DNA from: Halichondria panicea
Taxonomy: Eukaryota; Porifera; Demospongiae; Suberitida; Halichondriidae
Direction: 5' to 3'
DNA length: 64,000 nucleotides
Assembly: GCF_963675165.1 (NCBI RefSeq)
Contig: NC_087378.1
Span: forward strand, 1,015,001-1,079,000
The translations under genes were made by a program, and so were the position numbers. The notes under the pieces are model-generated. The model did no database searches. It worked only from the letters and a program-made list of their open reading frames with translations, and was not told the DNA's origin. Below are positions 65-55,900 of the stretch, piece by piece (position 1 is the stretch's first letter; each line of letters opens with the position of its first letter).

Positions 65-2702
<2,638 letters not shown>

Positions 2703-2893
2703 TGTATGTTGTTGTATGGACTTAGGGACAGTATAAGACAAACAATTAAATCATTTACCTGTTACAAGTTGATTACTATTAGGGATTATTATTGCATAGT
2801 GCACTCTTGTCTGTTTATCAGTGGAAATGGACAGCAGCTATTTAGAAGGAAAAAAGATGGTTTGTAATTTTGATTCTACTGATTTTTGCTGAC

Positions 2894-2899
2894 AATAAA
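2894..2899 (+). terminator. Polyadenylation signal of EEF1A
   Basis: AATAAA lies about 190 bp after the EEF1A stop codon and about 190 bp before the NHLRC2 start codon. Confidence 0.7.
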
Positions 2900-3090
2900 T
2901 TTGTTGCACCATGAATGATGTGACTGGAAGAGAAAGAAAATATGTTGAAACATTCTAAGTAGGTATGGGTCGTGGGATTATGAAGTATAATAAGCCAAGC
3001 CATGCAAAAATGATTTACTAGTTACATTATCTTTACCTAATATTTAGGATTGTTCCTAGCTAGCTAAAATAATAAGCTATTACATCGGCT

Positions 3091-4957
3091 ATGTCTACTC
3101 TGATTCCCCCATTAGAGCATAAATCAGTGAAGGCTAAGCTCTCATCATTGAGATTCTCTATCGAACAAACAGAAGTTCTCCGTGAGAAGCAGTCAGCTAT
3201 CACCACTCATCTTCAAGCCACTGAGAATGATCCCCTCTTCCAATTGGACCCTGAATTCCCATCATCTTTGGACTGGTTCAACTCAAAACCTCTGTCTTTT
3301 TCGAAGGAGCTAGCTGGGAAGATTGTGGTGTTGGATTTCTTCACCTACTGTTGTATCAATTGTGTGCATATTCTCCCCGATTTGGAGAGATTGGAACGTA
3401 TCTATTCTCCGTCCGATGGTGTGGTTATCGTCGGTGTACACTCGGCCAAGTTTGGTAATGAGAAGGTGTCGGACAACATTCAAAATGCCATTGAGAGGTA
3501 AATTGGTTAATAAGTTTCTTTGTGGATGGATGTATGGCAGCATTGTTTTAGGATAAAGCATCTGTTCACACTCAATACTCTGTTTATAGATTATTGTTAT
3601 TCCTTCCCATGCATGTTTATATAGGTATGGTATCAAACATCCAGTTGTGAATGATGTCAACATTGAACTCTGGGAGAGGCTAGGAATAACTTGCTGGCCC
3701 ACTCTGGTAATTATCGGTCCTAATCGACAACTACTGCATTACATCATTGGAGAGGGGCATGCCGACGAGTTCCACATCGTCATGGATACAGTCGTTGCGT
3801 ACTACAAGGACAGGTTGAACCTCGATGACATTCCGCTGGGGATGGGGGTAACAAAGATGGAGGCTCCCTCCTCGCTCGGTTTAAAGTACCCGGGAAAAGT
3901 TTGCTTAAGTGAGGAGAGAGGTGTCTTATTCATTTCAGACTCCAGCAACCATCACATCTTATCTGTGGAGAAGACAAGTGGTATGTACAGTTACAGTTGG
4001 AAAGCACATTCACGTTACTGTTTCTAAGTTTTAATTTCTATGCTCCTTACCAAGTTTATTGATTGTGTTCACACACATACACATGCAGGAAGTGTTGCTG
4101 GTATCTACGGTAGTGGTGTGGCAGGTCTAAAGGACGGGGGTAAGGGAGAGTGTCAGTTCAACTCCCCTCAGGGAATACTCTGTCACCAGGGAGCACTCTA
4201 TGTGGCCGATACCAACAACCATGCCATTAGGAAGGTAAGCCCTGGAACAGCTAATTCTAGTAGAGTGAATCTAGTACAGCTGAGGGAATTGATATTAGAT
4301 TGTGTACATGTAAATTAGCCTCTGTTTCTTGTGGTGACCACAATATTCATCTGCAGATTGACTTGGCTGCTGATACTGTTACCACAATAGCCGGAACTGG
4401 TTGCCAAGGCAGCGACAAGGAGGGAGGGGCAGTGGGCACGGCTCAGGAAATATCTTCTCCGTGGGACCTTGAACTAGGGACATCCCCTAACTCTGACCAC
4501 CCTAATCTGCTGTTCATTGCTATGGCAGGCTCTCACCAAATTTGGATACACTTCTTGGAAGATGCAGACTGGACTAAAGGAAGGTACGGTTGTGCTTTCA
4601 ATTGACTGTTCTATTCCCTCCACTTTACCCCCAGGCACTACTCTGCCGGGACCACACTCCGTTTCTCCGGCTCAGGGGATGAGGCAAACAAGAACAACTC
4701 GTATCCTCACAAAGCGGCCTTTGCTCAACCCTCTGGACTCACACTGGGTGGAGGGGGTAACCTGTACATTGCCGACAGTGAGAGCTCTACTGTGCGCTGC
4801 GTAGGTGTTCCAGAGGGCGGGACTAAGGCCTTGGTTGGAGGAGCTATTGACCCTACGGTATGGCACAAAATGGCAAAATGGATGGATATGTAGTTAGCTC
4901 TTGTGATAGAACTGTTCGTTTGAGCGTCTGTACTTTACAAAATACCCCCCCCCCCCG

Positions 4958-29070: not shown

Positions 29071-50548
<21,478 letters not shown>

Positions 50549-50872
50549 TCTTTCTGCTTTAGCTATACGAGTGACTCCTGCTTCTTGCTTATATAACTGC
50601 CCTTTGCTCTTTATCCAGAGAGAAACGTTGCACTGCAGGCCAGGCTAATACAACGACACTGGAACGTCAGTGAACGCGCAGTGAACGTACAGAAACTGTA
50701 CACCTTTGATCGACCACATGGACGTGGGCGTGGTCATTCTCGCTAACCTTGCCCTAGCCCTTTGATCAATAGAGCTATTTCATCACGTGATCCATTTCAT
50801 CCATCCGCCCACGCATGGTGTACTGTTCAACACAGGCAGGTGTAGCAAATACGGCATTTAGCTATCGTGCAG

Positions 50873-52338
50873 ATGCAGCATCTATCTTCATACGCTGCAA
50901 CTCTGGGATTGGAGGCTATAAAGCGATACAAAGAGAAAATAGCAGTGATTGGTGGTCTAGATCCATTTTCAGCAGCCCTTGGAAAGCCAGTAGATCATGT
51001 TCCACCACTAGAGGCAAGTGATATTGTCTCTTACTTGATCCTGCAGACTAGTTTCATCACATCTAAACAATTCCAAGCCAGAAAATCGCTTGAAGCATAC
51101 AATCAGTTTGTTTGTGGATGGGTCAAGGATGTCAGTACCTGGACAGTGTGTGGATCATACCTCACAGTTGGCCGTGTAAGTGCATAGATAATGAGATGCA
51201 TGTACTGATTATGACACTGATGAAGTAGTATGCAATGCTTGAATTCACTTGCTCATGTAGCTTACATGTAGATACGTATGTACTATATGGACAGTAAACA
51301 AATCTTTTCTATAAATTATAGGTTCGACATTCTCAGCGCTTAAACGATACTCCTTTGGCATGTTGGATCATACTTGATTTGACAGGTGCTGTGTCTTGTG
51401 CTCACTGTAATTGTATGGCTGGCCTTGGAGAGGTTTGTACGCATATAGCGGCAGTACTGTTTTATCTGGAAGCTGCTTACAGGATTAAAGGAAAGGAAAC
51501 GTGTACGCAAACCAAGTGTGAATGGCTTTTGCCATCTTTTTTGAAGAAGATAGAATACAAACCCGTCAGGCACATTGACTTCACTTCTACAAATAGTAAA
51601 AAAAGAAAATTGGACGAAATGATCGATTCCTCCTCTACTTCTAAACAGCAACAATCTGATAATCATCCTGCTACTAGCACAGAGCAAAAGGTATACACAA
51701 ATATCCCTGATGAAAAGGAAATGAGTGATTTTTTTGAGAGCTTAAATCATTGCGGTACAATACCAGTAGTACTCTCATTGGTTCCTAATTATTCGGACAA
51801 ATTTGTAAAATGTAATGAACTTCCTAGGCCTCTTCAGTTGCTTCATGATCCTAAATTCATGACTCTAGAATATCAAGAGCTCCTTAACGAATGTGCATCA
51901 CTTAAGATACTTTTAACTAAGAATCAAGCAGAAAAGGTTGAAATCGAAACCAGGAATCAGGCTAAGTCTAATCTTTGGTTTAAATTTCGAGCTGGAAGGG
52001 TGACTGCGTCAAAAATGAAAGCTGTTTGTCACACCGATGCCTTAAACCCTTCCCAGAGCTTAGTAAAACGTGTTTGTTATCCCGAGGCTTTTTGTTTCAA
52101 AAGCAAGCAAACTACCTGGGGTTGCAAACACGAAAAACCAGCAAGAGATCGATATTTTGCAAAATCTACTCAAGTGCATGCTGAGTTTGAAGTACGAGAC
52201 AACGGTTTATTCATTAGTAATGAATGGCCATATATCGGTGCCTCACCAGATGGTATAATCAATTGCACATGCTGTGGAACAGGTGTATTAGAGGTTAAAT
52301 GCCCTTACTCTCATCAAGGTGAACGTATTTCTGAATGA
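50873..52338 (+). CDS. SWIM zinc finger plus YqaJ-type recombinase/nuclease, 2 exons, C-terminally short
   Basis: Exons are 50873-51175 and 51322-52338, 439 residues. The SWIM zinc finger is CAHCNC...EVCTHIAA with ligands C130, C132, C140 and H142, a probable DNA- or protein-binding module. KKRKLDEM is a possible nuclear signal. A YqaJ (lambda exonuclease-like, PD-(D/E)xK) domain starts near residue 320 (WFKFRAGRVTASKM). It has PARDRY, YIGASPDGII (D411) and LEVKCP (E425, K427), so the catalytic triad is visible. The protein then stops after only 12 residues, whereas YqaJ domains normally run on for tens of residues more. It may be truncated, or it may splice onward from CAAG|GTGAAC at 52318. 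It overlaps the THAP gene tail to tail. Confidence 0.75.
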
Positions 52339-52634
52339 ATCATTTGTTTCTCATGGCCAAGGTGTAAGGAAGGCAGCCAGTCAGGATTATTCTTATCAAA
52401 AAGATAGGCGGGCTTCCCAGAAATGAAATGTCTTGAACAAATTCGATCGTTCACCAATATCTTATTGGTGAGACCTTCTCGTGAAATGGCAGCCAGAAAT
52501 CCGTTTCTCCTTTTTTTACTGAGCTCTTTCTCAACAGCACTCCTGCCATTTATTATAGCAGGAATTCTATAGAAGGATACTTCTTTATCTCGCCCAGAGC
52601 GCTTCGAGCAGCCTATCACTACGCACAAAACCAT
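52314..52634 (-). CDS. THAP zinc-finger protein, single exon, short
   Basis: 106 residues. The start MVLCVVIGCSKRSGRDK, then FYRIP, then ICSRHF and DWLPSLHLG form a C2CH THAP DNA-binding domain with ligands C4, C9, C66 and H69. THAP domains occur in P-element-like and other transposases and in host factors that came from them. Little follows the domain, so this is either a stand-alone THAP protein or a fragment of a longer one that lost its C terminus. Its stop overlaps the 3' end of the YqaJ gene by 25 bp, and its promoter side is the right TIR. Confidence 0.8.
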   Translation of the reverse strand: MVLCVVIGCSKRSGRDKEVSFYRIPAIINGRSAVEKELSKKRRNGFLAAISREGLTNKILVNDRICSRHFISGKPAYLFDKNNPDWLPSLHLGHEKQMIHSEIRSP

Positions 52635-52909
52635 GACTGTGATTTATAGTATCTATGGTGAGCCCCACCCTTCTTTTTGGCTGTGATATTATGAATATCT
52701 GTACACCAACATGGCTGACTAGGCATTTTTCACGTGACTGTGACGTCACATGAAATAGCTCTATAATAAGACTAGCTGACACACCCATTATTTTATCTCA
52801 GTGTAAAGTGTCTTCTGGCTAGCTCTAGACGTACGTAGACAGTAACTTCATGAACTCAAGGCTGCTTTGACTTTCCTACTGAACTAATATACAGCAACAA
52901 TCTCTCGAG

Positions 52910-55900
52910 ATGTCTGCAGATCCCATAGTGTACAAAGAGGGGATGCTATTGAAGAGGCAGAGAGGCTTACACACCAGCAACACAAGGAAGCTCAAGTTCC
53001 AAGAACGGTTTTGCTGTTTGACAAACACCTCTCTGGACTACTATGACCCACTACCCAAGAAGAGGGTAAATAATGATTGTAATGTAAGGTGTATCTTCTG
53101 TGTAAAATGGTAATACTATAGCAAGCTTGTTAGTTTTGCTGAAATACTAGCTGATTTCTCCCAACTGTACATATCAATCACATTTGCATCAATCAAGCTT
53201 GCACTAACTTCAGTTTCATGATGCCTACTAAACAAGTTGTTTGCTCTTGATAGTGATCACATTAATTTGTACTGCATACCAAGTATTTAGCTGAAGTTAA
53301 TGAAAAATGTAACCTTAGGGGTAATCAAATTACTTACTAACTGGTAACCTGGTTAGCTGTGTACATAGGTCTGAGTCAATTGCATATTGTAACTTAAGAT
53401 TTTATTGGGTGTGTGAAACCAACTGGTTATCTTTTTAGCTGCTAACTGTTGTTTTATCTTCCCACATGAAGAGTTAATCATGCAAGCATTTGTTCAACTT
53501 CACCAACTAGAACCCTGTCTCCTATAAAGAATGTATGTTTGCATTGTACTGCACCTGTGCTCTCTCTCATACAGTGCTAGGAAAGCTGTTAATGGTTGGT
53601 GGCCCGGAGTTTATACTCACTGATTTATCGTGCTAATTTTATGCGCTTGCCACTGCATTTTCTCACTTACATCCCATGGCATATGTTTTGTCTTTCTAGT
53701 CAACACCCTTGAGGTTTACCTCCTTGGAGAAAACTCATGACCAAATTAGTTCATTTTTTGCCCCAAATCGACATCGGTGTCCAAGTGTTAGTAATAATAG
53801 GTTGTTGTGTGTTATAGGACTAAATGTTTTTGTGTTATATATCCTGAAGTGTTAGTGCATGTTGTTCCTTCGAACTGCTGCCAAGTTTCCCCATAATTCC
53901 AACAATAGTTTTCAAGAGGTGGCACTTACTTCGAGTGGTTTTGTCATTGCTGCAGCACAAGGCTACATAATAGCTTGTACCAAAACAACATCAGTTTAGC
54001 TTGTATTTTGCATGTACCAGCTTGTAAGCCTAACCATTGTATTTTCATCCTTTTTTGTGACATTCCAACATCAATTAATAGCTTTGTGTAAACAGTTAGA
54101 GCACGTCTTGTTTGATCATGTGCGTGTGCAGAGAGACCTCACAATGAATTTTAGCACGGTTAAGAGTGTTTTGAAACTATACAATGGAATGTAGTCTTAT
54201 TCAAGTTATTATTATTAATAGTCTAGTTTCTTGACACTCTTTTCAACCTCACTCTCTCTCCCCCTAACCTCGTGCACAGCAGTCTGAGGGGCCCAAGGGT
54301 CAGTTTGCCGTGGAGAAGATGAAAATCATCGAGCCAATGAAAACAGACATCTTTGGGAGAGAATACAGATATGCTGTTCAGGTAAGTTGCTTTCTACTCA
54401 CACCTTGCTTGTTTGGGTGATAGACGCAGCGCAAGTAAACAGTGTTTGTTAGTGTTGGGAAATATTTTTGTCAACTGTCAGCATCAAACACAATGAGCAG
54501 TCTTTGTTGGGATGATTCGTAGGTGTGTGATTTAGTATGAGACTGCGGCTGAGTAGTATACTGTTCACAATGGGAGTTAGTTACATCACAATGGAGTCAT
54601 TTCTGTTTGTACACATTCTCCCTCAGACACACAATTCTGTAGCAGCCGGCTGTATTCCCTGGCTACCATTTATATTTGTAGTAACAAAGAACTAAACCCA
54701 CTCTGCATAAAGAGCCTCCCTCCTCCCCCCCCACCCCTTCCATACACACTAACCCAAGAGACATCTCTACCACACACACACACACTTACAACAGATTGGA
54801 GACCAGCAAGAGATCATGTATTTTGTGACAGAGTCAGAAGTAGTACGGGACCAATGGCTGGAAGCTTTCAAACTTGGTAAACAATAGCTGTTATTTTGGT
54901 GTGGGATTAAATTGGTTTCGGTATTAGCTACAACAACATGTCAGTTATTGTATCCATGGCATTCAAAAGTGATGCTGATTGTTGTATACAGAAATTCTCT
55001 AAGGAAACACTGTGTGTGTGTAGCTGTGTGTTTTTTGGGCCCATATCTATTCTCCTAAAACCTTTGATTATGCAACTGCACACACACATCACTCATACAC
55101 ACCACACACACACACACACACACACACACCACACACACACACACACCACTCACACACACCACACACACACACCACACACACACCACTCACACTCTGCACG
55201 CACACACAGCCTCCAGAGATGCCACTGTGGTGATGCTCCCCCAACACCATCATGGCGCATACGGGCTACTGAACAAGGGCCGCTGGAGTTGCTGTGCTAA
55301 CACTCGGAGGGACACCATCGGATGCTCCACTTCTAGTATCTCCAGGAAAGGTAGGTCACAGATCAGGGCCTAATTCTTGTGCTTAATTATTGACTTTTCA
55401 CAGATTTAACTCTAACTTTTCCATCACCATCACCTTCGAAATTACCCTCCCTTGTTGAGTTAAAGACCTCCTCCCTCCCACGGAATAATGCCGACACCCC
55501 TCAGTCTGCCCCACCCCCCATCACCATGGAAACAGGAGTGTTCCTGGCTCCAACTATACGCAGATTCACCACAACTGACCCTCTCATGAAACCAAAGTAA
55601 GCCGCTGGAAGCCATGACAGACGAATCTCAGAGGAAGTATTATAATGTGGCCCTATTGTGAAGGATTATGCCAGCAAGCTCCTCTTAGTAGCATGGCAGT
55701 AAATATTGTGTATCCCATCTCTAAGGGTCCCTGTACTGTACATTGTAGCCGAACATTTTTGAGTAATACTGTGAAATTCTATTGTTCTAATTTAGTGCTA
55801 TGAGGTTGAGGAAACTACGTCAGTCGGTGGATTTTGACAGCGACAAGATTTCTGAACTCGATGAAGAGGAAGAGCCTCCAAAATCTCCTAAGATCATCTC

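Follow-up and report, generated by a model that had tools for sequence, protein, structure and literature searches.

A probable non-autonomous ISL2EU-type element and its full-length relatives in the genome of Halichondria panicea

An inverted-repeat element and its copies

The window, a 64-kb stretch of the Halichondria panicea genome on contig C2, contains an element of 1,996 bp, the AT dinucleotides of both tips included, in which the remains of two convergent genes lie between short terminal inverted repeats (Table 1). The 15-bp repeats had been described as perfect, and they indeed pair without mismatch. The subterminal sequence that the two ends were said to share is also present: the 64 kb contain the palindrome TCACGTGA at two places (starting at 50783 and 52730), both of them subterminal, and nowhere else. 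Domain searches identified both a YqaJ domain (PF09588, E=6.7e-19) and a THAP domain (PF05485, E=3e-09) in the window and revealed no DDE domain within the unit, consistent with the initial annotation, which had seen no DDE transposase there. The proposed SWIM finger could not be retained: its basis was a CxC-x7-CxH motif, which we take to be the SWIM consensus, and the spliced window protein gave no Pfam SWIM match at E<=10.

Table 1. Features of the element in the window (window positions)
Feature	Position	Strand	Remarks
Whole element, probable non-autonomous ISL2EU-type derivative	50769..52764	.	C17:1105731-1107726 holds an identical copy; the ends recur in longer copies on C8, C3, C6 and C15
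Left terminal inverted repeat	50769..50783	+	AT at 50769-50770 probably target duplication
Subterminal palindrome TCACGTGA, left	50783..50790	.	
YqaJ-protein gene, coding part of exon 1	50873..51175	+	Spliced reading; putative start codon
Putative intron	51176..51321	+	GTAAGT...TATAG, in phase
YqaJ-protein gene, exon 2, shortened by deletion	51322..52338	+	439 aa spliced, compared with 618 in full copies
THAP-only stub of transposase gene	52314..52634	-	106 aa, of which the final 7 are encoded past the junction; 516 aa in full copies
Deletion junction	52337..52338	.	1,892 bp (full-element positions 1570-3461) missing
Subterminal palindrome TCACGTGA, right	52730..52737	.	
Right terminal inverted repeat	52750..52764	-	AT at 52763-52764 probably target duplication

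We searched the source genome (131 Mb, 39 contigs) for further copies of the ends. The exact 15-mer was found at 19 sites, 14 of which form the paired ends of seven elements while the remaining five are single. When up to one mismatch was allowed, the number of sites rose to 37, compared with 6 for a backwards-read control pattern. Because the 15-mers occur in pairs and exceed the control, the inverted repeat is more than a chance match. Elements with both ends, referred to here as complete copies, reside on C2 (the window copy), C3, C4, C6, C8, C15 and C17, and these seven properly paired copies establish that the unit is repeated. They measure 3,888 bp (C8 and C3), 3,725 bp (C6), 2,477 bp (C15), 1,996 bp (window and C17) and 1,736 bp (C4), and all seven share the 15-bp ends and the AT at both tips. 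In addition, a genome search with positions 50700-52830 yielded at least 27 matches, several of which stop at the inverted repeats.

Full-length copies and classification

Longer copies had been suggested as a place to look for an additional reading frame, and the full-length copies on C8 and C3 carry the DDE transposase that is absent from the window copy. Between these two copies, 3 of 3,888 bases differ, and each has both ORFs open. One strand encodes a 516-aa transposase with the domain order THAP-HTH-DDE_Tnp_4; in the C8 protein, Pfam matches were obtained for THAP (PF05485, E=5.4e-08), HTH_Tnp_4 (PF13613, 1.1e-15) and DDE_Tnp_4 (PF13359, 8.1e-52), the last covering residues 342-510. Motif reading points to D340, D415 and E462 (numbering starts at the first M) as what are presumably the catalytic residues. 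The opposite strand encodes, convergently with the transposase, a two-exon 618-aa YqaJ protein (PF09588, E=8.1e-22 in C8), in which the domain match extends to profile position 146 of 150 and the CxC-x7-CxH motif is also found.

The window copy corresponds to the C8 element minus the segment listed in Table 1, plus one base change at position 306. The missing segment includes the DDE domain, a PHD finger and the last part of YqaJ. What is left of YqaJ in the window covers profile positions 2-117 of 150, whereas the THAP match is whole (1-86 of 87) and its frame reaches a stop 7 codons beyond the junction. No microhomology was seen in the letters at the 52337/52338 junction. The THAP piece, initially taken for a separate gene, is the amino end of the 516-aa transposase. 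Likewise, the two convergent reading frames do overlap at their 3' ends (52314-52338), as had been reported, but they are not two complete genes: since the overlap spans the deletion junction, it is a by-product of the deletion. The raw sequence looked new because this deletion took out the core of the transposase and joined what was left of the two genes.

The C17 copy is identical to the window copy letter for letter and has the same junction. We compared position 306 among the seven complete copies, aligned by sequence context, and found C in the window and C17 copies and A in the other five (C8, C3, C6, C15 and C4); a decayed copy on C12 is unreadable at this position. Other deleted copies retain other parts of the transposase, namely a 285-aa stub in C15 and residues 51-519, lacking a start, in C6.

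This organization is closely similar to that of ISL2EU transposons of the PHIS superfamily, which are described as elements of about 4,840 bp, found only in animals, that have an AT duplication, one ORF with DDE, HTH and THAP and a second ORF with YqaJ (PMC4482050). The same two-ORF plan was repeated in 2022 (PMC9179366). Like ISL2EU, the full copies are about 4 kb in length and combine a THAP-HTH-DDE ORF and a YqaJ ORF with short terminal inverted repeats and AT at the insertion site, and the 13-15 bp repeats of the window element fall inside the published range of 6-259 bp (PMC4482050). Because the architecture of the full copies matches the published plan, we file the window element as an ISL2EU deletion derivative. 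Judged against the published description of ISL2EU, it is very probably a non-autonomous, internally deleted copy of such a two-gene transposon. The proposal of an undescribed transposon class is therefore not upheld, since the same architecture is already in print for ISL2EU (PMC4482050), and the candidate is settled as a shortened version of an element type already described.

Several features set the sponge family apart. Excluding the AT, the element tips are AG, in contrast to the usual GG start of ISL2EU (PMC4482050), and the flanks are mostly T-AT-A instead of A-AT-T. The window copy lacks DDE and keeps only the THAP domain of the transposase ORF, and the YqaJ protein of the full copies has an ING-type PHD finger that goes unmentioned in the portions of the ISL2EU descriptions compared. 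PHIS elements were also stated to be absent from sponges, among other groups (PMC4482050). Spy, another PHIS lineage, has a related DDE transposase but consists of a single ORF with no YqaJ protein, and shows no duplication at its AAATTT target (PMC4482050). Since the authors of the 2022 paper knew of no reported demonstration that ISL2EU transposons are active (PMC9179366), the near-identical full-length pair on C8 and C3 may be useful.

Insertion sites, movement and alternative origins

At the seven insertions, the base preceding the AT is T in five copies and A in two, and the base following it is A in all seven. We joined the flanks of each insertion and compared them with the genome, scoring the best 40 of 42 candidates. 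With the C17 flanks, this comparison brought out three related sites on the same contig (87-91% identical) that are continuous through the insertion point, and each has exactly 2 bp, GT, at the place of AT...AT in the filled site; the alignment took in these three of the five matches spanning the point, the other two being weaker (75% and 82%). As far as the sequences go, the three C17 sites are compatible with duplication of 2 bp at a TATA-like target, one base being different. Either this base differs between the repeats or the duplication is inexact. A 3- or 4-bp reading of the TATA type yields an identical C17 empty site, with the 4-bp reading entailing a mismatch in two of the seven copies. 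The C8 insertion gave no clean empty site: it lies in a repeated stretch, the two related copies aligned both lack some 52 bp adjoining the left tip, and the joint does not simply match, so that C8 speaks neither for nor against the AT reading. These 52 bp are perhaps a trace of faulty repair. No related empty site was found for the other five insertions among the best 40 of 42 candidates. We additionally observed that the stretch of about 52 bp left of the C8 element (L009:380-500) holds a second copy of GAGTGCGAATT, absent from the two aligned related sites, and that C17:1084106-1112315 is a cluster of related repeats, one of which hosts the identical deletion copy.

The flanks of the window copy and the C17 copy differ although the copies themselves are identical, and one derivative has therefore reached a second site. 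Together with the ends shared by seven copies, this supports the initial view that the unit is mobile. Both copies lack a DDE domain, and the transposase would therefore have been supplied from elsewhere. Three explanations had been offered for the missing transposase, and the third, a deletion derivative mobilized in trans, fits best, given the presence of full DDE copies and of one and the same derivative at two places. The first, a YqaJ-driven mechanism, is not sustained, as the same ends bound full copies with a DDE transposase in the architecture published for ISL2EU (PMC4482050). Because the two identical copies occupy unrelated sites, we consider it most likely, judging from the sequences, that the window derivative was moved in trans by intact copies.

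In the mechanism we envisage, the THAP and HTH domains of the transposase would bind the element ends, its DDE site would cut them, and insertion would take place at TATA-like targets with duplication of the AT. One deletion, arising most likely through gap repair after excision, would have cost the window copy its DDE domain, YqaJ end and PHD finger; with both ends kept, this copy would then have been mobilized in trans by intact elements. The 106-aa THAP protein that remains might act as a competitor for the ends, by analogy with the repressors made from deleted P elements.

A stronger form of this analogy, that the THAP-only protein acted as a KP-like repressor and aided the spread of the derivative, appears doubtful. 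KP and other internally deleted P elements are likewise non-autonomous derivatives in which both ends and a portion of the transposase gene survive; in the window element this portion is a THAP-bearing stub. The transposase superfamily is a different one, and any repressor activity of the window stub is suggested by analogy. The deletion leaves the THAP match intact, with a stop soon after the junction, and the same derivative was found twice. Moreover, truncated transposases with a THAP domain are described as repressors, small P elements encoding, for example, the 207-aa KP protein (PMC7776569). However, two copies are all that were found, a number that drift can yield, and the C15 and C6 deletion copies keep other parts of the transposase.

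Trans-mobilization of an ISL2EU derivative was also weighed against three far less probable origins. A new transposon class in which YqaJ cuts and THAP alone recognizes the ends would account for the missing DDE domain and for a unit at two sites, but the full-length copies with an open DDE_Tnp_4 transposase have the same ends, and the window YqaJ domain is itself shortened; we give this reading very little credence. Membership of another THAP-bearing superfamily, the P element or Kolobok, would explain a THAP domain at the amino end of the transposase. P elements duplicate 8 bp of target and Kolobok elements TTAA, whereas tips and empty sites here point to AT/TATA, with TTAA absent at the tips from the flanks of all seven complete copies. 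The catalytic domain is DDE_Tnp_4, and no P-type transposase domain (split RNase H, GTP-binding insert) was matched by Pfam at E<=1 behind the THAP domain of the C8 transposase, which makes such an assignment highly improbable. Equally improbable is a fixed host gene pair of transposon origin. A YqaJ/DDE pair on C13 offers a precedent, as its reading frames are long and open and the surrounding DNA examined showed no clear end repeats, but this is not transferable to the window, where the element is one of seven copies that have identical ends in different surroundings.

A PHD finger, neighbouring host genes and other YqaJ genes

At its end, the YqaJ protein of the full copies carries a PHD finger of the ING type (L009:2344-2607 in C8), with PHO23 (4.8e-18) and ING2 (1e-16) as best PDB matches; in Pfam, two PHD models match the C8 finger, both under their cut-offs. 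By PDB comparison, the YqaJ protein of the C1 family also ends in an ING-type PHD finger (L021:2170-2343; ING2, 5.6e-16), for which Pfam shows no PHD match. None was evident in the C13 YqaJ protein by reading and in a Pfam search of part of it. ING fingers read H3K4me3. We found no report of a PHD finger in an ISL2EU YqaJ protein in the literature searched; Repbase, which lay outside this search, may already file the family or the finger. The term PHD is absent from the main text of PMC4482050 and of PMC12730594, and in 2015 the role of the additional ISL2EU ORFs was described as unknown (PMC4482050).

Of the seven complete copies, four are found no more than about 350 bp away from a putative host start codon, as deduced from ORFs. 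The window copy is situated between the putative starts of two divergent host genes that would be roughly 370 bp apart without the element (window 50548-52910). About 220 bp to its left is the predicted start codon of a Brr2/SNRNP200-like gene, the next exon of which matches the U5 200-kDa helicase (5.2e-14), and on the right the putative start of a PH-domain-like gene (match at E=0.00055, under the cut-off) is 146 bp away. A deoxyhypusine hydroxylase gene (3.6e-91) lies about 293 bp from the C6 copy, and an MFS gene (3.1e-18) is at about 46-200 bp from the C15 copy. The C4 copy is about 350 bp from the start of an NAD kinase 2-like gene (3e-10), apparently within it. For the C3, C8 and C17 copies, the ORF list showed no such neighbour in the 1.4-1.5 kb on each side. 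Nearness to host starts in a compact genome may reflect chance, open chromatin or selection against damage. A more speculative possibility, which we consider rather improbable, is that this ISL2EU lineage picks its landing sites by a histone reader, the PHD finger of the YqaJ protein holding the transposition machinery at active promoters. This would be in keeping with the four copies near starts and with the position of the window copy between divergent genes, and the finger offers a testable idea on targeting.

Finally, we surveyed YqaJ in the genome as a whole and obtained 15 matches: five belong to the family of the window element, four lie beside a transposase match and six have no such neighbour among 32 transposase matches. 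The four YqaJ/DDE pairs with a transposase neighbour, all convergent, are located at C1:9026206, C13:1854168, C8:3975574 and C3:2079710. The C3:2079710 element has 71-bp inverted repeats (94%) and shows AT-GG...CC-AT inside A-AT-T, the published ISL2EU pattern, and its transposase has internal stops. For the C1, C8:3975574 and C13 pairs, no convincing end repeats were found in the surrounding DNA examined. The C13 pair (C13:1852497-1855676; L046, L027) consists of a THAP-DDE frame of 454 aa and a YqaJ frame of 560 aa stop to stop, both open, and L029 on C15 resembles a close relative of its YqaJ part. At L034 (C3:3898816-3902205), a YqaJ ORF lies closely behind a Mutator-like transposase domain (PF20700, 5e-51), so that YqaJ accompanies at least two transposase types in this genome; the protein text of L031 and L033 is similar to that of L034, indicating a second group of YqaJ genes. 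Separately, L066 (C1:5280527-5280718), the sole COX1 match reported, is a COI fragment with two in-frame TGA codons and is probably a nuclear copy of mitochondrial DNA.
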